A stretch of DNA of 64,000 nt. Source: Moniliella sp. 'wahieum' (Eukaryota; Basidiomycota; Moniliellomycetes; Moniliellales; Moniliellaceae). Location: positions 196,001 through 260,000 of the forward strand of contig RSEE01000030.1 in NCBI GenBank assembly GCA_003971905.1, written 5' to 3'. The position numbers and the translations under genes are program-made. How positions within the stretch are numbered: the first letter of the stretch is position 1; every line of letters begins with the position of its first letter. The notes under the pieces are model-generated. The model saw only the letters and a program-made list of their open reading frames with translations, did no database searches and was not told the DNA's origin. Shown piece by piece: positions 2,732-63,541 of the stretch.

Positions 2732-3211
2732 GACGATGTCAAGAGACCAAAGGAACCAACCAGTTCCCTCCAGAACCGTACTCGAGTAAAAAAAAGAGGA
2801 GACAGTACTGACTGAATTGCACCGACGGCCCTTGAAATGTTCGTATTTCCATTTCGCCGTTGTTTTCTCCCTCGTCACGCGTCACGTGTCACGTGTCACT
2901 GTCCCATGTGTGCCAGCGGGGAGGCTTGGGTGGCCGTGATTATATTCGCGAGGCGGATTGAATATTGACATGATATCGATGACAAGCCGTTCTCGCGCCT
3001 GCGCCTTTCCTGAGTTCGCTTGCCCTTTCTACACTCTACGACCACCACTGCTTGCATCTGGGACTCGTTTACATCCGCGCTCGTGATTAGCCGCCTAACG
3101 TGCTCCTAAGCAAAAGCGGGACATGCAAATGTGGGCCGTCCCGTCAGATCTGTGACCACGTCACCAGATAAGTTTAAGTCCAAAAGGATCAATCTCCAAT
3201 CTGGGGGCATA
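2732..3211. other. Intergenic: PWP1 promoter and nitrilase 3' flank
   Basis: No gene is seen. PWP1 and the nitrilase point the same way, so this holds the nitrilase 3' end and the PWP1 promoter. A 7-bp-period array lies at 2874-2899. Confidence 0.6.
2874..2899. repeat. Heptamer array, unit GTCACGT
   Basis: Nearly four tandem 7-bp units are seen, GTCACGC then GTCACGT twice, then GTCAC. In the register shared by other arrays of this window it reads ACGCGT-C, ACGTGT-C, ACGTGT-C. It sits 143 bp upstream of the PWP1 start. Confidence 0.8.
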
Positions 3212-4143
3212 CTACCTCGAACACCCTTGACCTGACGAGGTCCCAAGCCACAGAAGATCGGGTCGACTGTAATGGCCACCAATATCGACAAAGGGCTTGA
3301 AAACGAGGATGAGGTCGAGGTCAATGTCAGCATAGAGAATACCTTCCTCGACCTGGCCAGAGGCTGGGAAAGCTGGCGGCCGTCAGGCAAAAATCGCTGA
3401 GGAGCCACCACCGGGGCTACTCATCATCGGCCCGCCGTTCGTTTCGTTGGCCTCGATCGCTTTTCGGTGAGAACGGCGTGCTGTGCAAGCACAAAGCAGC
3501 CAGCTTTCGATGGCAAACGTGGCGCCAAGGTTTGGCAGCCTTCCGCCGACAGGAGAACAAGTCTTGACCTGCAGGTCCAGAGTGCGGCGTGACCGAGGGC
3601 CAAGCGGCAAAGTGAATTTGTGGACGCTGGATGGCGACGTGTACTTGAGAAGTGGTTGGATATGCTCCCAGCATGATAAGGCCGAGTACCGTACGCCATC
3701 GACAGCGACCACGTCTGACAAGTCTCGGCCGTGCATCCCCAAATATGGTTCGCTCCATATGAGTGGGTTTAAGTTTACGACGATGAGAAAGGATGGCGCC
3801 GTGTTGCCAATGATTGCCTGGGAATATAGAGTGAGTCGCCAGCCCGTTCAGAGAAGCCCAGTCCAACGACGCATGTTGAACTCGACAGCAGCAGCGCAGA
3901 TCGTGCGCATTTCGGGAGAGTCAACCTGAGAGAACTGTTGAGGTACTTGATGGTCAAACGGGATCAATGCACCGGGTCCAGACCCACAACGGTAGCCCGG
4001 GATCCACACTTCGGGAAAGGCAATAACATGAGCTCCATTCTCGGCTGCCTCTTTCATCAAGGAGATGTCTTTGCAACACAACCTTGGAGGTCAAACCAGA
4101 CTGGCTCTTGCTGGGTGCATGCGACGCGAAGAGAGGTGGTCAT
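3212..4143 (-). CDS. Nitrilase / carbon-nitrogen hydrolase
   Basis: This belongs to the aliphatic nitrilase and cyanide hydratase branch of the carbon-nitrogen hydrolases, which attack nitriles with a Glu-Lys-Cys triad. The N-terminus [19 protein letters not shown] is the usual first strand. The Glu motif is FPEVWIPGY, the Lys motif [13 protein letters not shown], and the nucleophile motif [28 protein letters not shown] and a C-terminal [12 protein letters not shown] are also typical. About 310 residues agrees with the family (310-360). The frame breaks several times; the first break, at about 4070, is mended by one extra A in a run, giving [13 protein letters not shown]. Substrate cannot be told from sequence; nitrile hydrolysis and cyanide hydration are both possible. 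Confidence 0.85.
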
Positions 4144-5505: not shown

Positions 5506-8500
5506 TTAGAGGAAGTGACGGCATCCTTCAGAGCCACAAAGACAAGGGATCGCATCTTCATCATTGGCATTGGCAGCCAACTTGTAGTCGTACGTGATCT
5601 CATCTCCTGGCTCGATCCAGTCTTTGGCAAACAGAACAATCCGCTTGTCCCCATTGACAGTCAAGATTTTGGCGTTGCAGTTGGGTGTGCAGCAGTGGTT
5701 CACCAGGCGAGCAATGTTACCCTTGCGCGTCGCATCGACGACCAGGTCATTGTCGACGCGAAAGAGGTAGGTCGAGAACTGACCGGACCGTTCATATGCC
5801 TTCTCACGCTCATCGGCCACTTGGTGGCGCACTAGCTCACCCACATACTCGATCACCATGTCCCCCGGACAGATCGACTCCAGCGCATACAGCCCCCAGT
5901 CGTGGATGCGAGACCTGGCGAACCGCAGCGCTTTCTTGCGCGTGCGAAGTTGGTTGATCGATAAGAGTTCCGAGTCAATGGTCGAGTCCCGCTTCTGAAG
6001 CTCAAAGTTGGCCACCAACCGGCGGCCGTCCGCACGGGCCTCACGTGCGCTTGCCAAGACGCCAGCGGCAGTCTTGCCCCCTACAAGAGATCTTCTTGAA
6101 GGTCAGGCACGTGGAGCGACTTGTGTCGTGGGTGCACGCGGAACATGCCTTCGGACCTGATCGAGCCCGATGCCAGACAGGGCAAGACACCCTCCTCCTC
6201 CTCCTCCGTCTCCTTGACACCCCCCTCTCGTCCATAGGTTCAGCACTGCCCCATGAGGTCCCTGGGCCAACCGCTCTGAGCTGCTCTAAGGCCCGCCTGG
6301 CATAATACAGGTCCTCCTCGTCCTCGACGATGCCAATGGCGTGCAGATCGGCCGCTGTATCCTCCGTTCGCGGCACGGTCTGCCGTGCTGCCTTCTTGAC
6401 AGGCCGCGGTGCAAGCGTAGGAGTGAGAGCATCATCCAACGTCGGTTCGGGTGACTGCTCGTGGTTGGAAGCATAGGACTCGCCATTCGGTGGATCTGTC
6501 GAAACGGATGCGGTCTCCTTTTCTTTTTAGAAGCGCGCGCCTTCTTACTGGTAGAAGCCACCGCACCGGACTTTGAAGGGCCCTGGGCGTTCTCCATCTT
6601 ACCAAGATCTGGTGCTGGTACCTTCGTCTCCTCCATGGTCACATCCTCAGCTGTATTTCCTTTGGCCTCAGCAGCATCCGGTTCAGCCAACAACATATCC
6701 AGCGCAGCGTCCACGGGATCTTCGGCGGCAAAAAGACGCTGAAGCAGCGCCTCATCTGCCACGCTGGTTCTGGATGTTTTTGCGATACATCCTGGGCTTT
6801 GCTCTTAGGCTCCCGGGACTCGGTCTCGGAGTCTGTAAAGTCGGGCAAGGTCCGACGAGAGTGTGACCTTGGGGGAGAAGAGGATACAGACTGATTCGCT
6901 GTCAATTTCCTCTCACGTTCGAGCTTGGGGTCGGACTCAGTAGAATCGGGCAGGTGGCGACGAAGAGGTTTAGGAACCAAGTTCTTGATGCGCTTCTCGT
7001 TGAAACGAGATGCACCCTTGTCGCCATCGTCCACGTCCCCTTTGGAATGAAGGGGGACATCAGCCTTTGCCTTAGAAGGACGCGCTCTCTTCCCCGGATG
7101 GGAGGTGGAGAGGGGAATGGTTTCTGTCCTGTGGGAGGTCCTGGAAGGCGGCCTTTTACGAAACACAGGCATCTCCTCGTCCTCGTCCTCGTCCTCTCCT
7201 TTCTCTTCGGGGACGGCATGCGGCTTTGTTGGGGCGTGCAACGGCTCAGTTTCCGTGCTCTTGATACTTGGCCCGCTCGATTTAGCATTCCCACCAGTAA
7301 TCTCGTTGTCGTGACTGGGGACGACCGCCTCACCCTGCTGGATTGGCAGACGATTCCGTGTATCACCGCGCTCGGCGATTGCGCCTGGAGCTGAGGCCTG
7401 GAGGACCTTGGGCACCCTCGGGATCGAGGGCAACTTGCGGCCAAAGGATGGTAAGCCCCCCTTGGATGTTCTAGGGGGCAGAGTGACTGGGAGGAGGGGT
7501 GGGCCTTCAGCTTCAGGGGCATGGGCAGGATCAGATTTCTCCCCATCTCCGAGGGCAGGCATGGTCGGTGTCAAGGAGGCAGTGGGTGGCGAAGTGCCGG
7601 CGGTGGAAATTGTTTCCCCTGCCGGAGAAGGCGCAGTGGGCGAGACCGAAGCAACCCCCGACACAAATGGATGAAGTGCCGAATCTCGCCTGGCTTTCAA
7701 TGCCAAAGCCAGCTCAGGTCGACAGAATCGTACACCCACGTCGGCAAAGAAGCGTTGCTTCAGTTCGGATACCAAGCGTGTAGAAGCCTCGTTGACTAAA
7801 TCTGAACGGCTCCAGCTCGTGCTTTTTGGATAGAGCGCAGCACTAGGAGAGGCAGCGAAAGGGGGATGTGGATGATACGAAAAGCGTGACCCATGTGGCG
7901 AGTGCTGTTCGAAACTCGTGATGTTAGAATGACACGTAGGAAGAGCCCAAAGGGAGCTACTCACCAGGGAGGGTTTGGGGTCATTGACATTGATCGCGGA
8001 AGGCATGTCGACACGATCGGTGTAAACGGTCCCGGTAGTTTCCACTGAAGATATTTCTCGAGCCCGAACTGAAGGAGGAGCAGCCCAGGCTGATGAAGCA
8101 GGAATGGATACGGCAGAGGGGGACCCCTCTGCACGAGAGGAAGGCTGTTCAGCGTTCCCATTCAAATAGGTACGGCGCGATGCATCGTCTTGGGCATACT
8201 GATTGGGTCCGACCACGTCATCAGCGACGCGGGGTCGAGCGTGAGGCGGAGCACCAGTAGGATCATCGTCAGGAGCAGGCCGCTTGAGCGAGGCAACTTC
8301 TTCTTTTTCCAATTGCGTCCCCACTTCCGACGAATCGGGCCCGTTCTTAAGATGGGACAAACGCCGGTCCCAGTCCGGACCGCGATCCCAACCCCGCAAT
8401 CCCTTGTCTCTGTCCCTTTCCCTGTATCTTTCTCCACTCCCCTGGTAGTGAAGAACTGTATCGGGAGTGTCGGGGGAGAGTGGCTTGCTCAAGCTTACAC

Positions 8501-9182: not shown

Positions 9183-9339
9183 GGAGATGGAGGATGGGGC
9201 CGGATGGGGGGGCGCAGAAGCGCGGTGGGCGCAGGGGCAAGGCAGATGAGGGGGTGGTGGGGGGCCGATGCGGTGGGCAGCCCAGTGGCGAGCGACTCAA
9301 ACCAACAATTTGGATTGGACGCAACTGGTGATTTGTCTG

Positions 9340-9360
9340 AAGCCTGAAGCTTAAAGCTTC
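9340..9360. repeat. Heptamer array, AAGCTT core
   Basis: Three 7-bp units, AAGCCT-G, AAGCTT-A and AAGCTT-C, lie 158 bp upstream of the SET1 start. Confidence 0.65.
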
Positions 9361-9581
9361 GTTCTCCGCCGCACGCCACGCCGACTAGAAGTTGAAAGAT
9401 TTCGACATGGCCGTCACCCGCCTGTCTCCTCTCCACGTTCCACCCACGCCGCCCCGTGCCCCGCGCCTGAGAGCCTGCTCCTCGCCCCTTCCTCTCTCGC
9501 CCACACCGCCCTGGGACCCTCCACGCCAGCAGTCTGTCAATCGGCAGCATCCTTCGCGACATCCTCCCTCTTCCCCGGCGA

Positions 9582-10142: not shown

Positions 10143-10340
10143 AGCAGTGGCGTTTCAGGCTTGCAGGGCATGGAAGGGTGCGGATCGAGGATCTTGTGTT
10201 GGGACCTGCGGTCCCGTACATGGGTCAAGGCGCCTTGTCAGACTTTGGGGCTTATTTGACCGGTTTGACCTCCGAAGCCTCCACGTGTATACTAAGGCTT
10301 GTTTGAACCCCTGTCTCCTTGAAGGCGTGGCATGTGGCAT

Positions 10341-13916: not shown

Positions 13917-14084
13917 TCAGTTCCCCTCTCTAACCCGTCCATTGTATGGGTGGGCGGGAAAAGAGGGGCAGAGGGAGGAGAGAGGGAGGGCGAGGGGAGG
14001 TCTCGTTCCAGACGAGCCAGGGCCTCGGACATCAACACCAGAATGCCAATGGGGGAGCAGAGGGAGGTGAACGTTGAACAGGAA

Positions 14085-16752: not shown

Positions 16753-18184
16753 GCTGGGGTGCGGGTGGGGAAGGATGGCGGAAAGGAAAACGGAAGCAAG
16801 TGGTGGTGGGGGAGCAGGTGCTGGAGGAAACGCTGGGCGTTGCTGCTCCCTACTCGTACTGGGGCTGGGTCACGGCGCCTAGGGAGCAGCAGAGCAGCAC
16901 CATGGGCAACTGATTGGCTGACTAGGCGGGTGTCTGGATGAGTGCGACGCGTGACGATGCGCTGGCCTGCGTTGACGTGTGGCTGGCTGACTACGGCGGG
17001 TCGTCTCCGCTGCCAGTCAAGTCACGGCAGTCACCGTCCCTGTCGCCTGGTCACTCGCCCGCGCCCGCAGTCGGCCTCTGTCGTCGTCTCTGGTCGCCTG
17101 CCTCGTCGGGCAAGCCTTGCCAGTGCCTCCCCAGGCCCCAGGCCTCACGCGTCACGCCCTCCTTACCAGCCTTCTGCCCCTCAGGCCCTCACCGTCACGG
17201 CCCCGGGCCAACCAGCACCCAGCAACCACAGTCCCCGGCAGACCAAAACATATAGATACCCTTGATCGTAGATACACGATGCCTTTCGTCTCTGCCCGCC
17301 GCACAATTCGGCGCACCCTACGCCACATGGGCCGGCCGGAGCGCCAGCCCAACACTCGAGCCGTGCCGCGCCAGGCCACGCCAGGCCACGTCCTGCCCCG
17401 CCACGTGAACCATCTTCTCCGACATGGCATGTCGGCCCACTGGGACACACAAGCGCCTGGCCAGCTGCCTGCCGGCTGGGTATATATTGGTCTGGGGGCT
17501 GCGTGCCCAGCACCATTTCCCGCTTGGCGGCGATCCAAAGCCATGCAAAGTGCTCACTGTTGCTCAGCACTCGAGGACTCAGCCTCAGCACTCGACCAGC
17601 CGAGGCGGTGGGACGCAGGCGACCAGCCAGCGTCCCCCCCGACCTCCCCCCGCTACACCGCTGTGGCGCCAGCGCCACGTCATCGCCTGCCTCAGGCGTC
17701 GTGCCTCCCAGCATCACATCACCCTGCCATGTGATTGCTGATCCCTGTGACCCGCATTGACATCACCCATCCCATTGGAAATTGCCCGGCGCATCGGCAT
17801 CGCAACCGGTAACCCGCGGTCACCTGACCCCCCAGCACTCCATATCGCCACGAGGGTCATTCGCACCTCTGCTATAAGCGCCGTTATGCGAGTTGCTCCG
17901 ACACTACGCACTTGCTCCGCCACACTGCGTTGGCCCATCCCAAATCCTTTCCCCCGTTTACACCTCCACCCGGGCCCGTCAAGACCGTCCGCACTCTCCG
18001 CACCTTTCTTTCGTGTGTTCTGTATATACGCCGGCGGGGCCCCGCTGCCGGTGGGACAGGTGTCAAGACGGGGGGATACCACGGATGGGTTTTGACCAAC
18101 CACGATCGGACTTGTTTTTGTTAGGCGTTGGTCCTTGGTCCAACCTGGAACCGGGGTGTCGTGGGCGGGCCCCGAACTGTGAAG
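16753..18184. other. Gene-poor GC-rich region
   Basis: This holds the BEM1 promoter on its left. Several long frames on both strands are GC-driven and show no family features. Tandem-looking CCACGCCAGGCC words occur near 17370-17400, and a TATATA lies at 17479. I see no supported gene. Confidence 0.5.
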
Positions 18185-21180: not shown

Positions 21181-21549
21181 CACAACGCGATGAGCATGCC
21201 TTCGCCCGACCGTATGGGGCGCCTAAGTTTACATGCGCCCACGGATGATATAGGCACAAGAAACTTGAGAATTGGGGGGGGGGGAAGAGGAGAGAGGGTC
21301 TCATATTTTGTCGTCGGCAGTTACCGGTTACCACTGCAGTCACCTGGTTGGTTACCGGAGGGGGTTCCAAAACTGACCATCAACTGAAGACTGAAGACGT
21401 ACTACTTTTGTTGTAAGCGCAAGATCCATTATTGGAGTCACTGAGCACTGCATTTTTGAGACGTTGGGACTATGAGGCGCTGAGAGGTTTTTGGAGGGCT
21501 CAGCGTGTTCAGCTCGGCAGACTCAGCCGTGAATAATGGCGCGGCCGAG

Positions 21550-21566
21550 CGCGCTGAGCGCTGAGT
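21550..21566. repeat. Heptamer array, AGCGCT core
   Basis: Two units ending GCGCT-G then AGCGCT-G, followed by AGTT. Part of the array cluster. Confidence 0.5.
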
Positions 21567-21868: not shown

Positions 21869-21889
21869 AACGTTGAACGTTGACAGGTG
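21869..21889. repeat. Heptamer array, AACGTT core
   Basis: AACGTT-G occurs twice, followed by a degenerate ACAGGT-G in the same 7-bp register. Confidence 0.65.
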
Positions 21890-22190: not shown

Positions 22191-22204
22191 ATCGATTATC
22201 GATT
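22191..22204. repeat. Heptamer array, ATCGAT core
   Basis: Two exact ATCGAT-T units in tandem. Confidence 0.6.
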
Positions 22205-22316
22205 ATTGCTCCACGCATTCTGCGGGCCGCATGGAGGAGGACGGAAGAGAACGTGGTTGCTGGCTGGCGAGGACGGAATGATTGTAGGACAGGCTATGGT
22301 GCTGGGGCGTGTGCTG

Positions 22317-22340
22317 AGGCCTGAGGCCTCAGGCCTGAGG
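22317..22340. repeat. Heptamer array, AGGCCT core
   Basis: Three exact AGGCCT hexamers are separated by single bases G, C and G, then a partial fourth unit AGG. The spacer varies while the hexamer is constant. Confidence 0.85.
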
Positions 22341-22920
22341 GGGGGTATCTTGAACGTTCAAGTTGAGCCTGCTGTTAGAAACGTGAAACCCGAGGCTCAG
22401 CCCAAGCGCCCAGGCAGGTGTTGAGCCCGAGGAGATCCCAGAGAGCTCTCGGATGTTGAGACGCTCAGGCACACATCCAGCCCTCCTTGAAGCAACTGAG
22501 CTTTGCAATTTGAAACCTGCCCTTTGACTCGGCTCGCATCCATATCAGCCCACCCATTCCGATGCGGGGTATCACACTTGACGCGCTGTCCTTGAACGTG
22601 AAACGCCTTCTGGCAATACCAACGCGTCATGCGACTGGCAACAGATGTGCATGCAACCCAGCAGCGCCAAGTGCTCGGCAGTTCTTCCGGTGGGGGCGGT
22701 GGGTGGGGTGGAGTGGGGTGGGGTGGCCGGTGGGGTGGCCGTCGGTCGACGTTAGATCTTAGGTCTTCCAGCGACCGACCAGCGTGGCCATAAATGGGGC
22801 GACATGTGACATGGTGTAACCGAGGGGGGACGTTGGACTGCTGAAACAGGTGTGAGGTATTCGTTTCTCATATTCCTGTCGCTGCACCGTCCGCGTCTGG
22901 AGGGAGTTAGCGTTTATTTA

Positions 22921-23018
22921 AGTTAAACGTTAAACGTTAAAACGTCAAGCGCTAAGCTTAAATAACGTTACACGTTAAAACGTTAATTCCTGCCGCCTAA
23001 GGCCTAAGGCCCAAGGCG
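22921..23018. repeat. Compound heptamer arrays, AACGTT then AGGCCT
   Basis: AACGTT-A repeats at 22926, degenerates through AACGTC-A and AGCGCT-A in the same register, recurs at 22964 and 22979, and is followed at 22995-23018 by AGGCCT-A, AGGCCC-A and AGGCGC. Confidence 0.75.
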
Positions 23019-23091: not shown

Positions 23092-23116
23092 ACCGGTTAC
23101 CGGTTACCGGTTACCG
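23092..23116. repeat. Heptamer array, ACCGGT core
   Basis: Three exact ACCGGT-T units plus the start of a fourth. The array reads almost the same on both strands. Confidence 0.9.
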
Positions 23117-23729
23117 CGCATCGAAGGGGGCAGAAGAGAATGCTGCTGCTCCCTCAGCCTGAGCTCAGCTTAGCGCTGAGGCTCCGTACACTCAACTCAG
23201 CGTCCCAACCAACACTCAACGTGCTCAGGACTCGCAAGTCCGTTTGGAGGGTTGTTGATACACGTTGTGACGTACACGGTGGCAGTTAGTATATTAGTGC
23301 GGGTGCCAAGGCAGGCGCGACGTGCTATGCACTATGGGCCATGCGCAGCACAGCAACGTGGAAGCGTGCGCGCTGTCGTCCCAACCCTACCCGCACAGCA
23401 GCAGTGTGTTACGATGCGCCCGCTGCGGCGATGCAGCTACGGAGCTTGACTAACATGCATCATGCGCCGCTCGTCACGCGTCACTCCCAAGCATCATGCA
23501 TCCTGTCACGTCATGCGCATGTCTTCTTCCCACGCAAGAATGTCGTCGCTGAGAAGTTCCACTCGAGCCCAGAAAAAAAAATGGCCCTAGGATTGGGATG
23601 GGATGGTGCTGAGCCTGAGCCTTCTTCCATTCCCTCGCTCCCCCGCCTTCCCCCGCCTTCCCCAGCCCGAAGGGCTCACGTAGGGTCGGACTTGGCCAGC
23701 GAGTTGACCAACAGGCTGAAACGGCGAAT

Positions 23730-23804
23730 ATCGACTATCGACTATCGACGATCGATGATGGATGAATCGGGATCATCGATCATCGATCATCGATCATCGA
23801 CATC
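23730..23804. repeat. Heptamer arrays, ATCGAC/ATCGAT core
   Basis: At 23730-23757 units read ATCGAC-T, ATCGAC-T, ATCGAC-G, ATCGAT-G. After a short gap, 23775-23802 has three exact ATCGAT-C units and a fourth with one change. Confidence 0.9.
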
Positions 23805-24180
23805 CGATTGGCTGGGGTTGGCTCTGACATGGTGCACCGCAAGGCATCCAGATGGAATGGCCCAATGGATAAACACACGTTGGGGCCAAGCTCCAAGACA
23901 GACCAAGACTACTTGACATCTCCGGCAATCGATATCATCGACCGATCCTCAGAGCACCGGGCACGAGCACTGGCGTGAGCCAGTGACTAGTGACTTCATC
24001 GGGCAGCGTGCTGGGTGGCAATGTCTGCTCGCGAAACGGCGACGGGCGCTGGCCATCCGATCCAGCGTCTCAGCCTCAGCGTCTCTGCCCCGCCATGCTG
24101 GCTCAGCGTCAGCGCGCAGCCGCGCAGCTGCGCAGGCGCAGTGCCAGGCACGCGTGACATCAGATGCCGATGTGCATGTG

Positions 24181-24219
24181 ACGCGTGACGCCCAAGCCGT
24201 GTGCTGACGCGTGACGCGT
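24181..24219. repeat. Heptamer arrays, ACGCGT core
   Basis: ACGCGT-G followed by ACGC at 24181, and ACGCGT-G, ACGCGT-A at 24207-24219, some 175-210 bp upstream of the ECL1-like gene. Confidence 0.75.
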
Positions 24220-36100: not shown

Positions 36101-37606
36101 CATGTTGACCTTCTTCCGGACGAGATGACGCTGTGCACGCCCCCCATGCCGGCATCGTACGCCCACGCATCGCTTCCTACGATCCAACGCGACTTGTCCT
36201 CCACACTGGGCAACGTAGCTAGCAGCGCACTGAGTTCGGGAGACAAGGTGGACTCTTGCGCCAAAGAGGAGGCCAGTTCCTGGGCTGCTGCCGCCGATGT
36301 AGCCGAGTCTCCTTGCACCAACTGGGTGGCCAGCTCTTGCACCTTGGCGGGGAGCGATTGGGACCGAAGCACGGCCTGAGCAGCTGTAATGGCCGCGTCA
36401 CGCTTCTCTAGCTGGGCCAGAACTTGCCCAAAGGCATATTCGGGCGACCGAGCTGCAGGGTGGGGGTCAGACTCGTTCGCAGGTGAGTTGATGACGCTGA
36501 GGCGAGAGCCAAAGATTTGTTCGAGGATGAGCTGATACGCTTGCTCGTGTTTCGTGGGTGTGACCAAGGAAGAAACGGGCTTGGTACTGGCAGCCAAAGT
36601 GCCAAGAGAGAACGTTTTGGACCGGTTATTCAGCGGAGGCCAAGTCGGCAGCTGACGTCGTATCGAGTTCCTTCACAGTGCCAGCTAGCACAGGGGGGGT
36701 TGGCCTTGGTGCCGTGCACCGTGTGCAGAGCGGCCACTACGTCGGTAAAGACAGGACCAACCCGGTCGTGCGCCCAGCCGTTTTCTCCAATACTGCAACC
36801 AAACTCGCCTTTTGTAGCGCCTCCTCCACTTCCGACGCAAGAAGGTTCGGGCGGACGAGGTGAAGTTCAAGCGTGCTGGCGTCACCAGCAATCGAGGCCA
36901 CACTCGGACCAAGTGAAACGACCAAACGATCGTTGCCAGACTTGTAAGTGTATGGCTCGACCGAGTGGCCGACCAGGTCGGAAACATGAGCAAAGGCAGA
37001 CTGGAAGGCCGAGGTAACATCAACAGTCTTCACAGGCGCAGAGGTTGCAGCGACACCATTTCCATTAGCGCTTCCGTTGGCATGCCCATTGGCTTTCGGC
37101 AAGGTGGCCGGAAGAGCAAAGACAGAGGGCAAGTCTTGAGCTGTGACGGTTTCCAACTTGGCTTCGGTCACCACAGTCTCGTAGAAGTGGATGACGGACG
37201 TCTGGGAAGCAGCAGCAGCAGCGGAAGCAACGAGGGTGTGATCATACGCCTGCTGTGCCGTTGAGGAGTAGAGAAGGGCCAAGCCGGAGGAGCGGAGGGC
37301 CAGCACGTCGGCGTGCCCAGCGCCAGCGGGGAGACCGATGTGAAAGACGACAGGCACAGAAGCGAGCTGAGGGAGGTAAGGGAGAAGACGGAGCAGAGCG
37401 ACACGGTCGGCAGGCGCAACAACCGAGACTTTGCTTGCGCCAGGCGGGTGGGACTTGGTAGCCGTCAAGGCAGCGGCGCCAAGCTCAGCATGCAACGGCA
37501 GAGTTTCGACGGGTGCATTGGAGAATTGCGTGGCATCGACGACCGTTCCAGCGACGAGCACGGCCGAAGAAAGTACGTTGGCCAACTGGACAACAGGCGA
37601 GGACAT
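33169..37606 (-). CDS. MET5: Sulfite reductase [NADPH] beta subunit (hemoprotein)
   Basis: MET5 reduces sulfite to sulfide in sulfate assimilation, with the flavoprotein MET10 as partner. The span fits the ~1,440 aa of yeast Met5 and follows its order. An N-terminal region resembling the pyruvate:ferredoxin oxidoreductase fold starts at [20 protein letters not shown] (37606). A flavodoxin domain follows with [19 protein letters not shown] and [16 protein letters not shown]. The siroheme/4Fe-4S half contains [34 protein letters not shown], and the cluster ligands CVAFPTC and [16 protein letters not shown]. No intron is evident. The frame breaks at least four times; at about 34416 one missing base (in CC or beside TTT) separates NDVDA from [10 protein letters not shown]. 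The final codons are unclear: the open frame stops at 33169, but a shift near 33320 would give an earlier stop just after PPPKVIPG. Confidence 0.93.
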
Positions 37607-38746
37607 GGCTAGATCTTTGCAGGCGAAGTGGTAGTCAGCACAGGCAAGTCCATGGGATGTTCGTTGGGTAGAAACACTCACTAAGCGCGAGAGCAGGGCC
37701 AAGTAAGAAAATGGGGCACGTGGGCTCTGGGGGCACCGAGAGCAGAGCAGAGCAAAGCAGAGCAGGGAAGGCCCCGAAGCGAGAAGGCGGTGGACGTGGG
37801 GGTCCTACTCCGAGCACGAAGGAGGGGGGGAGGGGGCGAGAGATGCGGGAAGTGGGCACACGCAGAGGAAGGGGAGGTGGTGGAAGGGGGCGGAGGAGAA
37901 GCAGGACTCCCGCCAAAGCAAAAAGATCCGCGGTGGTCAGATCCCGGCCAGATCTCAGACAGAAAGCACACAATTTCTGTCTGAGTTCTAACTGAGGATT
38001 GGTAATTGATTTATTCCGCCGCCGCACTATCGGACTAAAGCTACGAGAGGTCTGACAGATTAAAGTAGCGCGGAGAAGTGACCCGTGTCTGCCTAGCAGC
38101 CCCGCCCGGGATCCCGCATCCGTTCGCTAGGGGAGTCCGAGGCATGCGCTGCCGACCGCTCCACCACAGACAGGCGTGTCCACCGTCATGATACCAGCCA
38201 TCCAGGCGCATCCTCTTCATTCGTCCCATTGCGCCCTGACCTCGCCCGAGCAGTCCCGGCGGCCGCCGCCGAGTGGGCAATTAAAGAAACAGCACGGCGA
38301 AGTTGAGCCAAAAAAAAGTCGGTGGCCCGCGCTTGTGCGCCAGAGAAAGATGAAATTGCTGCCGCCGGACGCACGGCGAAAACCACACTAGCGCCGTGCC
38401 GGCGAGAGGGTGGTCACGCCATCGAGCAGCCCCATACGCCGGTTTATAGAAACCGAGCAATCTAGCCAAAGCCAGGCACCAAGCCGATGCCCCATCTCTC
38501 TGCATTGCCCGCGGTTCGGTGCTAGGTGGCCGGTGGTGCTTCCGGATTCTCTCTTCTGTCCCATCTGCCATGGGGCCTATCGGGGCGGGCGGGCCACCTG
38601 CGTATGCACAACGCCAAGTTTCCAGCGTTTCTGGTAACCGGTACCGGTAACCGCGGTAACCCCGCTATAACCCCGTTATAGTAGCCTTGTTCGGTGCACC
38701 TGTGTACACTGGCAAGCACTACGGAAAAGCAAGCGGGGTTCAACGT
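37607..38746. other. Intergenic between REV3 and MET5
   Basis: The MET5 promoter lies on the left side with a G/A-rich stretch (37720-37910). A tRNA-like but defective sequence occurs at 38087-38171 (minus), and GGTAACC words with two abutted ACCGGT hexamers at 38635-38665. A heptamer array starts at 38742. No gene is seen. Confidence 0.45.
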
Positions 38747-38767
38747 TCAACGTCCATTAATCATTGG
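38742..38767. repeat. Heptamer array, AACGTT to ATTAAT core
   Basis: Units AACGTT-C, AACGTC-C, ATTAAT-C, ATTGGC follow in one 7-bp register. The core changes from one palindrome to another while the spacer stays C. It overlaps the last nominal codons of REV3, which suggests REV3 really stops earlier. Confidence 0.65.
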
Positions 38768-41700: not shown

Positions 41701-43700
41701 ATAGGCTGGTCAAGGAGGATGCTCGCATCGGGGTCATTGTCCGTGTTGCGCACTGTGTGAACAAAATCAGGCAAAAAGGGGAGCGTAGGGGCTTGGAAAG
41801 TGAACTTGCGCCCGGCATACTCGCGGGGGCGAGGAGGCAAGTCAGCAGGATCGCTATAAAAAGCAGGTTGGTCCACTTGCCTGGTTAGGCCAAACTCGTT
41901 CAAGCTGTCCATCACCATCAGGCCGTTGGGGCCGGAAGAGAGAACTGCCAGGTAACCGGTTGTGATCGGCCAGCAGCCCGTGAGGGGCCGGGCGAGAGGC
42001 AAATGAAAATGAAAGACTTGCACCAGTATCGTGCCCATCTAGCCTGGACCGCTTAAACGGGGGTGAGGCTGGAGGTGAGTCATCCTCTCCTTCCAGTTCG
42101 CTTTGGCGTAGAGGGGAGGAACGATTAGGAGTAAATAGGCATCAAAAGCTCGCTTGTGAGGGGTAACACTTCCGGATGATGAAGCCCCAGAACGGCGAGA
42201 AGAAGGGTTAGCATCTGAATAACCATCTCCTTCACCCAACCATTCTTCCCCTTCCACGTCCTCTTCTCCTTCTTTCCCTTCTTCCGCATCATCATCTTCC
42301 TCCTCATTCACGTTCTGTAATTCCAAGGGAGGCAGGTCGGAATTGCGCGCCTCCATAGCCTGAAGCGTTTGGGCAAAGTGCTGCGTTCGAAAAAAGTCAA
42401 GATCTTGCTGGGTTTGAGGAGGAGGTAATTCGTCCTGATCTTGCAGCTTCTCTTCTTCCACTTGCTCCACATCTGGTTCGGGGCAGGGGGAGGCACAGTC
42501 ATGGGAGACGATGACGGCATCGCGCCTAACGGAGACGAGGGCAGCTGCCTCGATTTCCGTATGCGGGGAAGTGGGGAAGCGGAAGATTGAGACGATAAGA
42601 ACCTAGCCTCGTTCTGAGCTCGAGCAGCTGGAGAGAAGGGTTGGACCTGGATGTATAGGTGGCAGTGGGGCAGACAGACTCAAAAGCGGTAGGGATGGCA
42701 TGGGAAGCTTCAGGAGGAGGGCGAGCGAAACCAGGAACCGATCGATGCGTGTATGAAGCAGGTGTCTGTCTGCCTCAATACGGTTATACAGCGAACGCCA
42801 GAGTCGTTCGCTTGCCTGCCATTCAGGGCATTCTCCCGGCCCATAACGTCGGTGTTCACCGGTCGCTGCGGGAGGGGGGATAGTGGGCGGAAGGCCTGCT
42901 GCGACGCGGCGCGCCGATTCTTGCCGCCACAGAGCAGTGAGGGACGGGACCAGCCTCTGATCGGATGCAAGTGGGGGTTCGTTCAACTTGAGATGTACGT
43001 TTCGCTGGGTCAAATCGTGACGATTGAGAATATCAGTAACATGAGCATCAACCTCGATAGGACAGTAGGACTGCTTGGCTTGGTAGGCGTGCAGCTGGCA
43101 AGCCGAAGCAGATCGCACCCATACACATTAAAGTCGAGCAGCCACTGCAGCTGGAAGCGAATGTGAATCTCGTAAGGCTGGAAACGCGTGTTCATTACAC
43201 GACCGGAGAGAAGGATGGTGTGGATGCGCGAGTGCAGCGAAGGATCGTAGAAGGAGATCTTGAGGAAATACGACCAGCCACGTGATACCCATAGAAAGGT
43301 ACGGCCTTTACAAGCGTGATGGAGTGGAGGTAGCCATCGGAATCGGATGGGGGCGACGGAAGGAGGAGGCGAGGGCCGCATTGAGCTGGCGGTCGAGCTG
43401 GGCAATATAGGCGGCGGCAAACTCGGGCTCGAGGCGGTGAGGGTAGGGGATGTAGCAGTAGGGATACGCGCCGTGCAGATGCACGCACACCGTCTGGCAG
43501 TCGTCCGTTGTCCCGTACGCTCGCAGGATGGGCACGCGGCGTGCCCTGATACCCGGGTCGTCATGCAGCCCGGCGAGAGGGCATGTTCGAGATGGGTTAG
43601 CCGCAGCACAGGGCAGGCGGGTCGACGCGCACGCCAGACGCATCGGATGCAGATGGGGGTGGTGCTGGGGGGAGCGAGGATGCGGTGTGCCGGCAGCCAT
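38747..43700 (-). CDS. REV3: DNA polymerase zeta catalytic subunit
   Basis: REV3 is the B-family polymerase of translesion synthesis and works with REV7. N-terminal blocks are RRVPILRAYGTTDDCQTVCV and GWSYFLKISFYDPSLHSRI. The inactive-exonuclease region has LAIEVFARSRGGL and DPDILVGYNIHQSWSYLV. Polymerase motifs follow: ARVYGIEFFSVLSRGSQFKV, DFQSLYPSMMIAYN (motif A), ANVTYGYTSATFSGRMPC (motif B), VYGDTDSIFVYLPG (motif C) and LKFEKVYDPSVLVAKKRYAG. The C-terminus has the two cysteine motifs (CSVCGLPSNKGTSHALC; CLDC with CTSC), the second binding a 4Fe-4S cluster and accessory subunits. Length fits the ~1,500 aa of yeast Rev3. Start at the ATG of MAAGTPHPRSP (43700). The frame breaks repeatedly; near 43560 one missing G in a G-run separates LTHLEHALSPG from LHDDPGIRARRV. 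The true stop is probably near 38900 rather than 38747. Confidence 0.95.
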
Positions 43701-48141: not shown

Positions 48142-49205
48142 GGTGGCTGGAAGGGCAGGGAAAGGGGTGGTGGGAGGGGGAGGGCAAGGCATTCACGCGG
48201 CGCGGGTGGGGTAACGCCTTATTCCGCCGACGGGCGGAAGAGGAGGCCATGCCGAAGCGTAACCCTAGTGTCGAGTGAGCAGAGGGTGTGATCGATGACA
48301 GGAGCCGGCCACGCAGCCACAGCAGCGGGGGCTGCCCGGCCTGCGCGTATAGTTGGCAGGGGCGGGGCTTGGGGGCAGTATGCCCAGTAGGAGAGACGGT
48401 GGCGCAGGCTGCTGTTGTCGATTGGCCAACTGAGGAGGACACCGAGCAATGCCGTGGGTACACAGAGCTCATTTGGACTGTGGGCGGGCCAACGCCACTG
48501 CTACACAGCTTAGACCTCGCTTACGCCTCGCTACCGCGGGGTGAACGCATCCGTCGAGCTGTGTGCCCCTGTGCAGAGCGCACGCAAGACGGTCGAATTA
48601 ATGATCGACGCTGAGCGCAACGTAGAGCCTCAGGCTGGCGGAGTGCTGGGCCTCAGCGCCTCAGCGCTGAGCGAATGTACGTTGGACTTGCAGCAGCAGG
48701 GTAGCCGGTAGCCGGTATAGCGCAGGTACTCTCGCGCGCAAATGAGGTTATCGATATCTCGATTGCCGATTAATGACAGCTGTGGCGAAGGCCTCTGTTG
48801 CCCGCGCACGCCCACCTTGTAAGCGTCTCGCATCTTTTGAACTCAGCCGCATGGGCCTCCGTGCGACTGCTAGCAGCTTCGTCAGTCCGGGGGCGCCGGG
48901 TACCCAAGCATGAGCAGCTGCATCGAAAGAGCTGCAGTCGACTAGGAGAACTGCTATAGTACAGCCCGGCAAAATCCAGTCAGCCTCGGCAAGCCCTGTC
49001 CCCCCTTATTGTTCCGCCATCATCGTACCTCGCATCCTCCCCGCTCTCAGACAATAGCCAAGCCATCTTCTTTCCGGCCTTCTCTTCACGCGGCCCAGCT
49101 CCGCAAGGCCTCGGGGCAGTGCGAATGCGCAGCCCTCGCGTCGAGCCGGACGCGCGCAGCCAGCCACTAGTCACTGTCTCGCTGCTGGGCCACAAGGTGA
49201 CATAT
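48142..49205. other. Divergent spacer between SKP1 and the kinase
   Basis: No gene is seen in about 1 kb. Short direct repeats GTAGCCG (48701-48714) and CAGCGCCT/CAGCGCTG (48656-48671) resemble the heptamer arrays but do not follow the same register exactly. ATATAT lies at 49203, by the presumed kinase start. Confidence 0.45.
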
Positions 49206-55905: not shown

Positions 55906-55991
55906 ATGCTTTATTATGTGGCACACCACACTGAACAAAATGCAAGATATGCTTTATTATGTGGCACACCACACTGAACAAAATGCAAGAT
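55906..55991. repeat. Perfect 43-bp tandem duplication
   Basis: Copies 55906-55948 and 55949-55991 are identical and begin ATGCTTTATTATGTGGCA. They lie in the 3' flank of the PWI gene and duplicate an A/T-rich stretch that may carry 3'-end signals. Identity implies a recent event. Confidence 0.95.
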
Positions 55992-56274
55992 AGGATGACG
56001 ATGATGCAGATGATGTTTAAGGAGAAACGGGGGGTTGGTGCCAACAAGCAGCACACGCCGGATCAGTGGCCCGTTTAGACGCAGCGCTTTGTGTCCCAGT
56101 CTTAAACTCTGCAAATGATATGAATGCGAGAGACGTATCGTGCAGCTCATGCTCTCTTTTATGCTGAACAGTATCGATTCTGAATGGGAGTATCCAACAT
56201 CAAATCTGTTGGAAGAAGAGGATCCATGTATGTCATCCAATACTGCTGGATCATTACGGGGTTGCGTACCACAA
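55992..56274. other. Spacer between PWI gene and tRNA-Arg
   Basis: No gene or regulatory element is recognised. Confidence 0.5.
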
Positions 56275-56355
56275 GGACGGCTGGCGCAATGGTAGCGCGT
56301 CTGACTACGACTGGTTGTAATCAGGAGGTTGCAGGTTCGACCCCTGCGTCGTTCG
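56275..56355 (+). tRNA. tRNA-Arg(ACG) with 9-nt intron
   Basis: The acceptor GGACGGC (56275) pairs with GTCGTTC (56348-56354) using G-U pairs, with discriminator G. The D arm is GCGC-AATGGTA-GCGC and the T arm GCAGG-TTCGACC-CCTGC. The anticodon stem TCTGA pairs with TCAGG. The 16-nt loop reads CT-ACG-A, then nine bases (56311-56319), then A, which gives anticodon ACG with a very short intron at the canonical site. A reading as tRNA-Thr(UGU), from the TTGTAA at the loop's end, needs a non-canonical intron position and is less likely. Confidence 0.78.
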
Positions 56356-56382: not shown

Positions 56383-56474
56383 CGTGTTTTTCCTAATTGA
56401 AAAAAAACCAGTGAGTCACTATCGCGTCCAACTGGCCGCCATGTTCTATTTATCCCGCCGGATTGGGCCACACC

Positions 56475-57539: not shown

Positions 57540-57581
57540 TTACCGATTACCGATTAGGCCTAAGGCCTTAGGCCTTAGGAG
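57540..57581. repeat. Heptamer array with core switch, ACCGAT to AGGCCT
   Basis: Five units keep a strict 7-bp register: ACCGAT-T twice, then AGGCCT-A, AGGCCT-T, AGGCCT-T, then AGGAGG. The four-base core changes within one array while spacing and the flanking A and T are kept. Confidence 0.9.
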
Positions 57582-57654
57582 GAATCGGACATGTCGTGCG
57601 ACATCCGGGAGGACTAAGCCCTGCCGGACAAAATCAGATGTCTTGTCTTCGCCG

Positions 57655-57690
57655 AACGTTCAACGTTCAACCGTTCAACGATCGTTCATC
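57655..57690. repeat. Heptamer array, AACGTT core
   Basis: AACGTT-C twice, then longer palindromic variants AACCGTT-C and AACGATCGTT-C. Confidence 0.75.
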
Positions 57691-58102
57691 ACGTATCATC
57701 ACGTGATGCATCGCGTCAACGTTGACCGCGTTGACCAGTACAAAAATATTTTGCCTCATCCAATCTCCAACCATGACGTTTTGCGGTATAGTACTCACTC
57801 AAAGATGCCAAACCCCATTATAGCTGCTGCTGCTACTCCTCTCTCCATTGTCAACGCGGGCACTCTACTCATTTCCAACGCGGGCCGAACCTTGGCAGAG
57901 ATGGGGCCCAACGGGGTAGATTTCAAATAGGGACGGGAGTTCACATGTCACATGAGCGCAAGAAATAACTAATGACGCCTCCCAAAGACCAACTCAAAGG
58001 GTAAGGTGTTTGCAAGCGAAAAACAAAGAACGCGGGGGGTTAGGGAGAGGGGGAAGGGGGGGGAGGGGAGATGGGGGAAAAGTCCATGAAATAGGAGCCG
58101 GT

Positions 58103-59124: not shown

Positions 59125-59887
59125 GGCCGGGGGAAGACAGAAGGAGGAGGGGGAGGCTTGGTGGTGATGGGGGGAGGGGAGCAGACGAGCAGGCGGGCTG
59201 GCGGGAGGGCAGAATATAAGGGGGCTGTGGCCGACGGCCTGCGCCGGCGCCGATGCTGAGTGTCAGGCTGAGGCGACGGAGCGCGACGTTCTTACCCCGT
59301 TGCCCCGGCGCAGACAGGCAGGCAGGCGGCAGGCAAGTGTCGGGGACAGGCCCACAGCGGCAGTGTGTGTGGACGGGTGCGCGCGGGCGGGCAGCAGCAG
59401 CAGGCGGCAGGACAGGCGCAGGCCACCATGCATAGTGCATAGCCCAACCCCAGCGGGTCCAAGAACAGAGACAGGGAGCAGGCGCTGCCCAGTGCTGCTG
59501 TGCTGCTGTGCCTGGGGCTGCGCGCGGCCGATTTTGGAAGGTCGGTGTCGATACGGAGGAGAGACGGCCTGGGGCGGATGTACTTACTTTCGAGGGCCAC
59601 CACTGCGTGCGATGCTACGTGTGGCCTGGTGGGACGCACCCCAAGTTTCAAGTTGAAGCTCCAGGTTAGTCAAGCTGCTTCCAGCTGCAATACTCCATGG
59701 CCACCAGGCGGCGGTGCGAACGGGACAGAGGCTTGGATGCAGGGTCGCCAGGGTCGCCTCTGCATGAGTTCGATGATCCATGGCTGCATGCCGCCCATCC
59801 CACACGCTGGCGCAGTGCCTAGTGCACCCCAAAACAATAATGCAGGATCATGATGATCGATGACTCACTGACTGGTAGTTGCTCGTT

Positions 59888-59930
59888 ACTAGTTACTAGC
59901 TCCTAGCTTTACTAGTTTACTAGCTAACGA
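59888..59930. repeat. Heptamer array, ACTAGT core
   Basis: ACTAGT-T, ACTAGC-T, CCTAGC, ACTAGT, ACTAGC-T, with spacers growing from one to three T residues. Confidence 0.7.
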
Positions 59931-60082
59931 TGGACCATGATCGATCGCTGATCGACGATCGTCCGCCGCGGGTTGTGTTTCCCAGCGGTTGGCGGCCTTC
60001 GGTGGTCTCCTTCAGCAAGATTACATGTGACAGGCAGCTCCTCGGCTCAGCGCCTCAGCTTCAAGCTCCGAGCTTCAGCTTC

Positions 60083-60109
60083 AAGCTTCAAGCTTCAAGC
60101 TTCAAGCCC
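60083..60109. repeat. Heptamer array, AAGCTT core
   Basis: Three exact AAGCTT-C units and a fourth with one change, preceded by looser AGCTTC words from 60060. Confidence 0.9.
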
Positions 60110-60825
60110 AGTGTTTGATGCTTAGTTTTGCTACATTGGCATGTCGCCCTCTGTCCTGCTTTGCACCCGCCGACGATGAATGGATCGGCATTGCGAGGTT
60201 CACGCGCCGCTGCTACATCATGCACTATCTGATCCCAGAGCGTCCTTGGCCGCATGGGTGGCAGGCGCGCGGGTGTGCTGTGTGTGTGCCAGCTCCGACC
60301 CCCCAGCACGGCTCCAGTCTCACCTGTCGCATCTAGTTGGCAGTCCTATCTTGGGCGGGGATCGTCGTCCGTGTCGCCTCGCCTCCGGCACGAGTGGCCT
60401 GCCGCTGCGAGCGCCGCGGATTGGATCTCACATCTTAGAGCTGCGAGCAAGCAGCTGCACTGCTGCGTGCGTGGGCTGCCTCGCCACGCACGGCAGCACT
60501 CTCCACCCTGGCCCCCTCGGGTTGGCGCGAAGCCGACGATGGGTGATGCATGATGCCTGCATGATCGCCATCCAGCAGCGCCAAGCTAGCGCTTCGCTTC
60601 TTAGTATTTGCGCGTATTCGCGCGGGAATTGCCGGCTGAAAATGGCCATGCCATTCGGGGGGGCATGCACGTGACAACCAACACGTACGACATACCCGTC
60701 GTTACGCATTCTCAGTATTCAGTTGTGCGTTACGAGGCCCTCAAGGGACCTACACCCTTCTCTGTTGGTCCGCCCCAGCAGCAGGTCCCAGCCTGTCTTC
60801 GTGCTGGCAGCGACGATCCTCGATC

Positions 60826-60942
60826 CACAGCCATTTTCCCCTCTTGTCCACCGTTCCATATAGCCCACCATCCTATCGCCCACGCTCCCCACCGTTCCAG
60901 CATGCAGCATAGGTTAAGATTCCATCATATTCAGTCTGTTGT
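60826..60942. repeat. Dispersed repeat, copy 2
   Basis: Same orientation as copy 1 at 12918-13085, with TCCACCGTTCCATATA, CCACCGTTCC and TTCCATCATAT in order and small indels between. Confidence 0.55.
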
Positions 60943-61166
60943 CATCACAGCCGTAGCAGGAAAGCATGGCAGTCAGTAGCAGGAAAGCGGGGACGGTGTA
61001 TCACCCACAGAGGTTCAGGTGGCCGAAAGGATGTACACAGCATTAGGGCGCATTTTCTGTACTTGTTGTCAACGACTGGTGCCGCCAGGGGTCCGCCCCC
61101 GGGGGGGTCTAGGGGTACAATCCCTTGGAGGTCTAAGGTCGACTCATGGTAGTTACGCCCTTGGCT

Positions 61167-63541
61167 TCATTGGTGGGTCCGAGCGGAGCTAGGGACGAGG
61201 AGAGGCCTTTGGTGGGGCGGCTGCACGTGTGGCAAGGCTGCGTCTGCACCGGCTTGGGCCGTAGTAACGTGTCTGAAGCTTCCGGAACTTAGGGACGGGA
61301 GGAGGCAGAGGGGGACAAAACACTGCCTCAACTGAGACTGGGAATCGCCGCGACCAAAGGAGGGCTCGCGCGATTGGACTGACGATGGCTGGAGGACGAG
61401 GTCGGAGGAGAAGTCGGACGCTAATAAGAGGAGCTGCCTGTACTGGATCAATTGGCTGGAAATGGGCAGGAGTCGGACAGGATAGACGGGAAGGCGAGAG
61501 GATGACGAGAATGGAAGGTGGGGGAAAAAGATCCCCATCAACCAGGGGTTCAGGCAGGATCAAAAGGGAAACGGATACAAGAGGGGGTGTAGAAAGGAAG
61601 GACATGTCAAGAGCGGGGTTGGTCGCCGCAGGCGCGACCGAGAAAGGAAAAAGGAAACGGGAGCGGGGCAACACGCGTCGCCACGGCACTGGAAGCTCGG
61701 TGGCCTTATTTAGGCCGGCCGACTTGGACTTGGGCGGGGGGCGACTATTGTCGCACGGAGCATGGCCCTTCGGCCACGATACTTAATTTAGCCAACCATC
61801 ATCACACTTGGTTGGCCCGCGGAGCACGCTCTACTAGGCATGTGCGGAGCAGGCGGGCCTTAGCATCGGTCGGACCATCTCGTGTCCGCCGCAGCCCGTG
61901 ACAATAATACCCGTCATGAGGCACTTGAGGTCTGATGGTTCCTTCTGCACATAAGCAGCATGCCTAAGGCTTGCTAACTGGGGTCCTGATCGATCATCCT
62001 GCCCCAGTTCCAACCGTTCCATTCCTCTATGGCCCGTTCACCTTCTACCACCACCCTTACGACGACTCCTTTAAGAAGTACGACGTGACACGTGCGATCA
62101 CTTGTGACAGGGGCTGTGACAGGGGCCGTGACATGGGATGTGACATGTGACGTGACATGTGACATGTGGCGCATCCCCAGGGGGGAACGCTGAGTTGAAA
62201 TGTGCAATGCGAGCCCGCAGCACGGTCGTCGGTACGCCGACAAAAGAGCGCGGCTGGAGAGACTGGCTCGCTTCTGCCGCCATGCCCAACACTCGCGCCA
62301 TTGCCCACCACCATCGCCACCACGCGGATCGACTTGGGATGGAATGTGCGACCGGTGCGGACGGGAAGCCATGCGATGCTTTTTGGCGGCCCCTGCATGG
62401 CCGCCTCCATCTGCCTCGCCGATTCTCCTGGGTCAGGGGCAACGGCAGAGGTGAAAGCCCCAGGCCAAGTGCCGGCGAGTGACCCAGCCCCCGTCCATGG
62501 TACCACAAGACCAAGTCAAAAAGGACCACCGGGCCACATGTCCACATGCCCAACCCAGACTTCCAAAAGGTACGTCGAACTGCACAGGCCAAACCTTGCT
62601 GGTTGGCGTTGTAACGTGCTATATCAAGGCGATGGGTGGTGATCGAAAAAAAAGTGATGGATTCTGGAAGCACAGACCAGAAGAAGGTCGATCGCTGCCG
62701 GAAACGGAGGAGAAGGGAGCTTGGCCCTCCTCCGTCAGAGAGACGGGGGAGAGGGATCAGGGTACTTGTGATGGTGGAGCAGCCCACACATGCAAAAGCC
62801 GTGTCAGCATCAAGGGGTGACATTTTCCCCCAGCGGAGCCTGAAAAGAGAATGCCCGGCATCTGGTCATCAGCGTCGGGTGCCCGATGGGAGGCCTGCCC
62901 CCGGCATTTCTTGGGATGGGAACACGGCACGACAGGACCCGACCGACCCAGTGTCGATCGCATTTGGGGATGGCAGAGGGGGTGAGGTGGCACGAACCAC
63001 TTCTGTGCGGACGATCTGTTGGGGACGAGGCAAGGTGCCAATGCGAGCCGCAACAATGCCGGCGACCGCCGCAAGAGGAGTGACCGGACCCAGTCGGTGC
63101 GAGCAGGCCCATTCAGTCTCGGTTGACGGTGGGGGCATGGACATTGTGTCGGTACTGTGGGGCGCATACATGTCCGTCGCAGATCATGGGCGCTCTTCAA
63201 CGGCCAACCCACGCTTCTCCTTACGTTGCGGTCAAGGTATGTTCCATCTCTCTTCTCCTCCTGTATTTCCACCGTGCTAACCCTTCCATTCCGGCCAGGT
63301 ACCCATGTCCAGGTACCCATGTCCTTCACGGCACGGCCTACCCTTTGGTTGGACCTCTGGCGTTCATCAACAAAGGCCAAGCAGAATGGAGGAGACAACC
63401 TACCTCCCCAAGTGGAGCCGTGACGGAGCACGATCCGTCGGCCTGGGCCGGTTTGGCCACCGTGGGAATTCAGGTCTTCGTCTGGCATTATCCACCGTGG
63501 GGCTGGGTTAAGGCCTGCGGGTTCGGCCTGGGGCCTGATGA
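61167..63541. other. Region without a supported gene
   Basis: A minus-strand frame from about 61600 (MSFLSTPPLVSVSLL) to 61189 is open and Pro/Ser/Arg-rich with no known motif. On the plus strand, 63188-63237 ends at a GTATGT donor and resumes after CCAG at 63299, a plausible small spliced gene with ALQRPTHASPYVAVK, unrecognised. A heptamer array lies at 62143-62167. Confidence 0.35.
62143..62167. repeat. Heptamer array, ACATGT core
   Basis: ACATGT-G, a short ACGTG, then ACATGT-G twice. Looser TGTGACA words extend leftward from 62103. Confidence 0.8.

Follow-up and report, generated by a model that had tools for sequence, protein, structure and literature searches.

Short palindromic arrays of 7-bp period, dispersed along 64,000 nt of the Moniliella sp. 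'wahieum' genome (assembly GCA_003971905.1, 69.5 Mb in 223 contigs; contig RSEE01000030.1, here C30, positions 196,001–260,000 of the forward strand; this whole stretch is called the window), are probably the excision footprints of a cut-and-paste DNA transposon that duplicates a 7-bp target and leaves donor ends capped as hairpins, which are then opened at 1 or 2 bases from the tip. Directly visible are the 7-bp duplication, its TNA centre, the bases at the junction that are reverse-complementary to their neighbours (P nucleotides), the coupling of bases gained and lost, and single targets at the corresponding sites of a second haplotype. A palindromic array is a special case: it results when complementary flanks are created by the scar or were present in the target beforehand.

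Palindromic arrays and the joints beneath them

A first-pass annotation of the window had described heptamers of the form A + four bases + T + one spacer, with an arbitrary palindromic core and constant outer A and T, as something other than copies of one repeat. That description is correct, and arrays are present at all 16 of its quoted core positions and at its start, 2874, although those at 9347 and 23000 are short or imperfect. The pattern is real, but its phase was misplaced: the basic unit is a duplicated 7-bp target with TNA at its centre, and the hexamer-plus-spacer grammar follows from it. The window contains 42 exact period-7 arrays (at least two copies) against a mean of 3.6 in 10 dinucleotide shuffles, and 22 palindromic ones against 0.6. 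In a 264-kb set, made of the window and 20 ten-kb stretches at round coordinates on contigs C1–C5, the corresponding values are 156 against 17.6 and 80 against 2.2, far above chance in the shuffle comparison that the annotation had suggested. Neither outcome named by the annotation as a refutation occurs, as other periods are not equally frequent for palindromic units either: period 6 gives 262 arrays with 45 palindromic (shuffles 61 and 13), period 8 gives 24 with 3, and period 9 gives 25 with 1. Among the 80 palindromic period-7 arrays the outer pair is A..T in 78 and C..G in 2, and 14 of the 16 possible A-core-T palindromes occur; the other 76 of the 156 arrays are non-palindromic, with TGA or TCA in just 16. 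Palindromes of the same core exactly 7 bp apart show the same preference (outer A 53 against 0.3, C 2, G 0, T 0).

The rule extends to the whole genome, where ACCGGTNACCGGTNACCGGT, the ACCGGT triple array, has 130 matches (reversed control, 1), the core CCGG with other outer bases has 5, and A-SSSS-T triples number 787 against 62. When gaps of 0–12 bases were allowed, 181 triple ACCGGT matches were obtained, and in 130 of these both gaps are one base. Single A-core-T palindromes were considered as seeds with a function of their own and rejected, because their excess outside arrays is slight (1.25 times).

With the copy-number cut-off relaxed, 51 palindromic lag-7 sites match at five positions, and 34 of them consist of the 12-bp unit TNAXY-Y'X'-TNAXY, read on either strand. 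In the 264-kb set, two TNA separated by four fully complementary bases are found 223 times against 29 in shuffles, whereas gaps with one mismatch show no excess (180 against 184), and the palindrome is therefore made in one step by pairing and not by selection of sequence. The base N of the two halves is identical in 176 of the 223, complementary in 26 and otherwise in 21. X and Y are free, since 15 of 16 pairs occur among 132 isolated copies, which share no flank consensus. Typical isolated scars are either this 12-bp unit or 15–16 bp long (heptamer, 1–2 P bases, heptamer), and outside an exact array the register holds for no more than one or two units.

For the classification of joints, target positions are named t1 to t7 with T at t3 and A at t5, Pn denotes n palindromic bases gained, and dn denotes n bases lost. 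Counts were made in a 328-kb set, with ANT, CNG and GNC centres and shuffles as controls. Six classes forecast by the mechanism below are strongly enriched for TNA alone: P2d2 (TNA 69+65 for the two mirror forms; ANT 2, CNG 8, GNC 6; TNA shuffle 1.2), P1d1 (41+27; 6, 7, 15; 1.0), the intact duplication with P1 (18+15; 1, 6, 4; 0.4) or with P2 (15+13; 3, 1, 1; 0), P1P1 (9; 1, 0, 3; 0) and P2d1 (9+4; 1, 3, 1; 0.2). The mirror classes are near parity (69:65, 41:27, 18:15 and 15:13), and a P of three bases is rare. Gain and loss of bases at the joints are coupled: in the window together with loci L004–L023, equal gain and loss accounts for 72 P2d2 (ANT 0) and 36 P1d1 (ANT 4), against 5 P2d1 and 18 P1d2 (8 at ANT) for unequal classes, with 16 and 19 in the two intact-plus-P classes and 22 P2d3 (5 at ANT).

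In the intact classes many targets are plainly non-palindromic, such as CATCAGA-TC-CATCAGA or TTTGACC-GG-TTTGACC. When non-palindromic heptamers are repeated with a 1-base gap, that gap is a P base in 20 of 22 cases at TNA (ANT 1/4, CNG 6/16, GNC 4/20), and with a 2-base gap in 21 of 28 (ANT 2/5, CNG 0/18, GNC 3/24). The target consensus derived from the 48 intact-duplication scars (38 distinct) is SNTSANS. In an unbiased 200 kb, picked by round coordinates, we counted 129 scars at TNA, about 0.6 per kb, against 10 at ANT, 24 at CNG, 30 at GNC and 2–4 in shuffles; in the window there are 40 at TNA, with 4, 14 and 12 at the respective controls. Ten-kb stretches hold from 0 to 26 scars, and nearly all hold some. 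Extrapolated to the assembly, the total would be some 35,000–42,000.

A forecast of the gap letters was also made genome-wide. For SATSAGG repeated after a 2-base gap, the left hairpin should give CC, and the right hairpin TC for targets beginning with G and TG for those beginning with C. This repeat is found at 366 places (reversed control, 23); among the first 100 of the 366 listed, 85 have identical heptamers, and 55 of these 85 carry a forecast dinucleotide, where about 11 are expected with random gaps. The letters follow the first target base among the matches listed (G: TC 27, TG 4; C: TG 9, TC 1). A search restricted to the gap CC gives 71 places genome-wide, 64 of them with identical heptamers, and none for the reversed pattern.

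The second haplotype and scars along the window

Contig C13 holds a second copy of parts of the window region, 93.9–97.5% identical outside gaps in four aligned blocks. We treat it as the other haplotype, although it may be an old duplication or part of a hybrid genome; since one region is present in divergent copies on C30 and C13, the 69.5-Mb assembly may likewise contain two haplotypes or a hybrid genome. Four examples of a single, 'empty' target at an allelic site were seen between the haplotypes. The single CATGATC of the window (60560..60566, forward strand) is CATGATC-GA-TGATC at C13:248525 (P2/d2, +7), and the single GCTGAGG at 23175..23181 (forward strand) is GCTGAGG-C-GCTGAGG at C13:211265 (+8). 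Conversely, the single GCTGAGG at C13:205124 corresponds to a forward-strand scar with P bases CC that has grown into an array in the window (22313..22340), and CATCATG near window 23492 is doubled at C13:211595. Of 64 listed haplotype indels of at least 3 bp, 19 are of 7 or 8 bp, 3 of 6 bp and 2 of 9 bp. Arrays differ in copy number between the haplotypes; about seven ATGCATG units, for example, lie in C13 opposite window 59850, where the window itself has no such array. Only 4 of the 19 window scars within aligned blocks are unchanged in C13.

The following window scars are read on the forward strand. P2/d2 scars lie at 14066..14079 (target GGTGAAC, P bases GT), 17143..17156 (CCTCACG, CG), 21319..21332 (AGTTACC, GG), 24177..24190 (TGTGACG), 24203..24216 (GCTGACG, the CGCG array of the annotation), 57939..57952 (GTTCACA), 59884..59897 (CGTTACT, its CTAG array) and 60542..60555 (GGTGATG); those at 57939 and 60542 are the same in both haplotypes, as is the scar at 23472..23485. 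The mirror form d2/P2 accounts for the quoted ACGT array at 21872..21885, and d/P scars for the GCGC array at 21553..21566 and the TCGA array at 22194..22207. A P1/d1 scar, TCTGAAG-C-CTGAAG, at 9336..9349 adjoins the quoted 9347 array. Intact duplications with two P bases (+9) are found at 10255..10270 on a non-palindromic target (TTTGACC-GG-TTTGACC) and at 56000..56015 (GATGATG-CA-GATGATG, the same in both haplotypes).

In the remaining cases no strand is assigned. The symmetric target CGTCACG occurs twice at 2873..2886, where all equal-offset classes coincide, and scars on other symmetric targets lie at 22996..23009 (CCTAAGG), 23982..23995 (AGTGACT), 38738..38751 (GTTCAAC), 57566..57579 (CCTTAGG, the quoted GGCC array) and 63735..63748 (CCTGAGG). 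Longer arrays are made of three copies of GTTAAAC (22922..22942), three of GGTTACC (23095..23115, where 14 bp are absent in C13), four of GATCATC (23771..23798, a quoted TCGA array), three of GTTCAAC, the last after one P base (57658..57679, 8 bp absent in C13), and four of CTTCAAG (60079..60106, a quoted AGCT array). The quoted CATG array is a compound scar and array on TGTGACA (62139..62164), and a +8 scar, CCTCAGC-G-CCTCAGC, with one P base, lies at 48651..48665.

Four of the nine long window open reading frames (ORFs) match MFS, M1 peptidase, PWI and sulfite reductase families, a eukaryotic coding content. The closest named match of the M1 peptidase is the basidiomycete Ceraceosorus bombacis (40% identity, with three metagenome proteins nearer at 46–59%), and that of the sulfite reductase piece is Serendipita, also a basidiomycete (58%). 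None of the 40 window scars falls in the 5,478 bp of these four ORFs, where about 3.4 are expected from the mean density of the window, which is mild evidence for the non-coding placement noticed at first pass.

Several other features of the region were recorded. The window has a perfect 43-bp tandem duplication at 55906–55992, absent from C13, with a tRNA-Val gene nearby at 56275–56355, and a GGTGGCC-type minisatellite at 22689–22752 whose length differs between haplotypes. The haplotype alignment ends at window 61311 (C13 ~249300), beyond which the sequences differ. Ordinary longer tandem repeats include a 110-bp run of the heptamer CCAAGCA in L004 (~9014) and an 8-bp TGTCCAGA-type array in L015 (~7558–7650). 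Opposite window 22490–22517, C13 carries an insertion of about 5 kb (~205.3–210.4 kb; L027, L026) that starts with TG, ends with CA, has like sequence at both ends and a 5-bp repeat TCTGC, and is by its look a long terminal repeat (LTR) retrotransposon. As the sole large haplotype insertion seen, it was considered as the agent of the scars and rejected on account of this appearance.

A proposed mechanism for the scars and its rivals

We infer that an enzyme would make a 7-bp staggered double cut at a symmetric target t1 to t7 (SNTSANS), so that both flanking ends carry the 7 bp and are sealed as hairpins. Each hairpin would then be nicked at a distance of 1 or 2 bases from its tip, with its last bases becoming the palindrome, before the ends are joined; an end ...t6t7 nicked two bases from its tip, for example, would gain t7't6'. 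If both hairpins are opened at the same offset, the equal-length 3' overhangs could be ligated as a mismatched bubble, which replication would resolve into P bases on the left with as many bases lost on the right, or into the converse, in either case with a net gain of 7 bp. Offset 2 would give TNAXY-Y'X'-TNAXY, that is, a palindromic hexamer A-core-T with an arbitrary core and a one-base spacer, and the +8, +9 and P2d3 joints would need extra steps. On a perfectly symmetric heptamer, P1d1, P2d2 and a bare duplication all give the same product, an exact extra copy. Since the scars contain symmetric TNA heptamers, a second event there, slippage, or both would lengthen the arrays by exact 7-bp copies, and slippage may thus extend arrays after their birth. 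Repeated insertion and excision of a cut-and-paste DNA transposon is the likely source of such cuts.

A number of results weigh against this reading. Arrays of 3–7 copies need re-targeting or slippage, and the haplotype differences are unpolarised. The 328-kb set includes loci selected for arrays and some haplotype copies. Some classes within it are not TNA-specific, namely P1d2 (TNA 10+14, GNC 26, CNG 31) and P2d3 (TNA 33, ANT 6, GNC 23), the latter being above ANT and not clearly above GNC, and offset-2 joints that carry P bases on both sides are found very seldom. The same lack of specificity is seen for the non-palindromic bare duplication (TNA 11, ANT 8, CNG 26, GNC 40), and TNATNA from double trimming (189 against 141) shows no greater excess than CNG (531 against 378); loss without gain does not stand out at TNA either. 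Among the first 100 of the 366 SATSAGG places, 30 of the 85 identical-heptamer repeats have gaps that P bases do not explain. A resident element with such target duplications was not found in about 330 kb (0.5% of the genome), nor was a transposase, two of the three family searches being without a working control. In the 264-kb set, no terminal inverted repeats flanked by a 7-bp duplication were found; a second search beside 7-bp repeats gave six at TNA, of which five are heptamer arrays and one is weak (L031), and a third gave four at TNA, made of arrays. The genome had no match to PF05699 (hAT dimerisation domain) or PF18758 (KDZ transposase), for which the control genomes were silent as well, and none to PF10551 (MULE transposase), for which three control genomes matched and which introns or divergence could hide. 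The absence of an element or transposase from the samples searched neither supports nor excludes a transposon.

This absence would also suit a process with the same chemistry and no mobile element: breaks with a 7-bp stagger and hairpin caps would be made at SNTSANS by a nuclease, perhaps a domesticated transposase, and the scars would come from their repair; the spread of the scars over nearly all 10-kb stretches points the same way. We consider this unlikely, as a symmetric, weakly specific short target with exact duplication, here of 7 bp, is what a transposase usually leaves when it joins DNA into its target, and 330 kb is a sample in which a low-copy element would frequently go unseen. 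Fold-back or template-switch synthesis at breaks (quasipalindrome-type correction, or snap-back of the polymerase theta type) could likewise copy a folded-back 3' end into P-like bases without capped hairpins, but it leaves the fixed 7-bp duplication, the TNA centre, the 1–2-base limit of the palindrome and the coupling of gain and loss unexplained, and seems quite improbable. Template switching at palindromes had been among the three origins offered at first pass, and does not account for non-palindromic 7-bp duplications joined by P nucleotides; closest to the present reading was its third suggestion, a templated end-repair process.

Ordinary microsatellite slippage of heptamers, aided by hairpin-forming units, agrees with the copy-number variation of arrays between haplotypes and with the many other tandem repeats of the genome, including the 76 non-palindromic period-7 arrays. 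As the origin of the scars it is nevertheless very improbable: it predicts whole-unit changes in copy number with no motif rule, which is not the pattern found; more stable palindromic heptamers are not expanded (pairs at distance 7: TNA 50, CNG 0, GNC 1); and isolated 12-bp units and +8 or +9 joints are not slippage products. The remaining suggestion of the annotation, binding sites for a family of dimeric regulators, has in its favour the dyad symmetry and the absence of window scars from the four family-matched ORFs, and yet is hardly credible. With 14 different cores, it is pairing and not sequence that stays constant, and binding sites leave the complementarity between arbitrary bases unexplained; moreover, the register decays just outside the exact arrays, and few aligned scars are shared unchanged with C13. 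Two further candidates were rejected. A 5-bp duplication with two P bases does not account for the repetition of complete 7-mers in the +8 and +9 classes, and 4-base overhangs of topoisomerase II, with A/T at the cut borders, would duplicate 4 bp and call for a pre-existing palindromic core, which the pair CATGATC (window) and CATGATC-GA-TGATC (C13) shows to be unnecessary.

Returning to excision by a transposon, a broader proposal is more tentative, with somewhat less than even confidence: an as yet undescribed DNA transposon lineage of basidiomycetes, which duplicates 7 bp at SNTSANS and forms RAG-like hairpins exactly at the border, might visit and leave sites very often without a build-up of copies. 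Its two hairpins would be nicked at equal offsets and ligated through a mismatched bubble, and the resulting V(D)J-like joints might have become the main source of short palindromic arrays in the genome.

Relation to known transposons and repeats

On this reading, the scars preserve in nature how hairpins were opened and ends joined in a fungus, and the sequence by itself reveals the offset, the coupling of gain and loss and the choice of target. Repair chemistry can thus give rise to a puzzling 'palindromic grammar', and a transposon may be detected through its scars when the element itself is rare, with the 7-bp target signature serving to look for it. The titles and abstract beginnings of the searched literature contain no description of such genome-wide scars.

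Cyanobacterial short tandemly repeated repetitive (STRR) sequences are short heptamer arrays between genes, and in this they are alike; the host here, however, is a eukaryote with basidiomycete protein matches, the cores vary under a pairing rule, and the window has no HIP1 octamer. A closer likeness is with Transib transposons and RAG coding joints, in which hairpins form exactly at the border and P bases make even, typically short, palindromes. Border-exact hairpins and even palindromes fit the present joints, where they are known from the scars only, but Transib and RAG duplications are 5 bp, and the +8 and +9 classes here repeat full 7-mers. For the wider CMCT clade, PMC12730594 puts duplications at 2–5 bp.

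The centre of the target also separates the scars from Galileo, of the P superfamily. Galileo has a symmetric 7-bp target duplication as here, with the consensus GTAGTAC (PMC2775673), but the opposite centre (ANT, not TNA), and ANT-centred scars in the 328-kb set are at or near background. P-element excision is not known to pass through flank hairpins.

Among hAT elements, the hAT7 transposons of rust fungi share with the scars both the 7-bp target duplication and basidiomycete hosts (PMC12730594). Excision of Ds (Ac/Ds, hAT) in Candida albicans leaves P insertions of mostly one or two bases (PMC5873905), the same kind of joint as seen here. In general, hAT duplications are usually 8 bp and the footprint palindromes are centred on the complement of a border base, whereas here the duplication is 7 bp and the palindromes start exactly at the border. 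A footprint with hAT-type tip bases was therefore looked for and rejected, since palindromes offset by one base are not seen at TNA: the class with both tips gives 0 against 1.8 in shuffles, the left tip with P1 gives 1, and the left tip alone gives 15, below CNG (28) and GNC (18). The scars are best read as transposon-type excision scars, a known kind, and are filed under neither hAT nor Transib because one tested feature of each is lacking; while the Candida Ds footprints come from an assay, those described here were counted genome-wide in nature.

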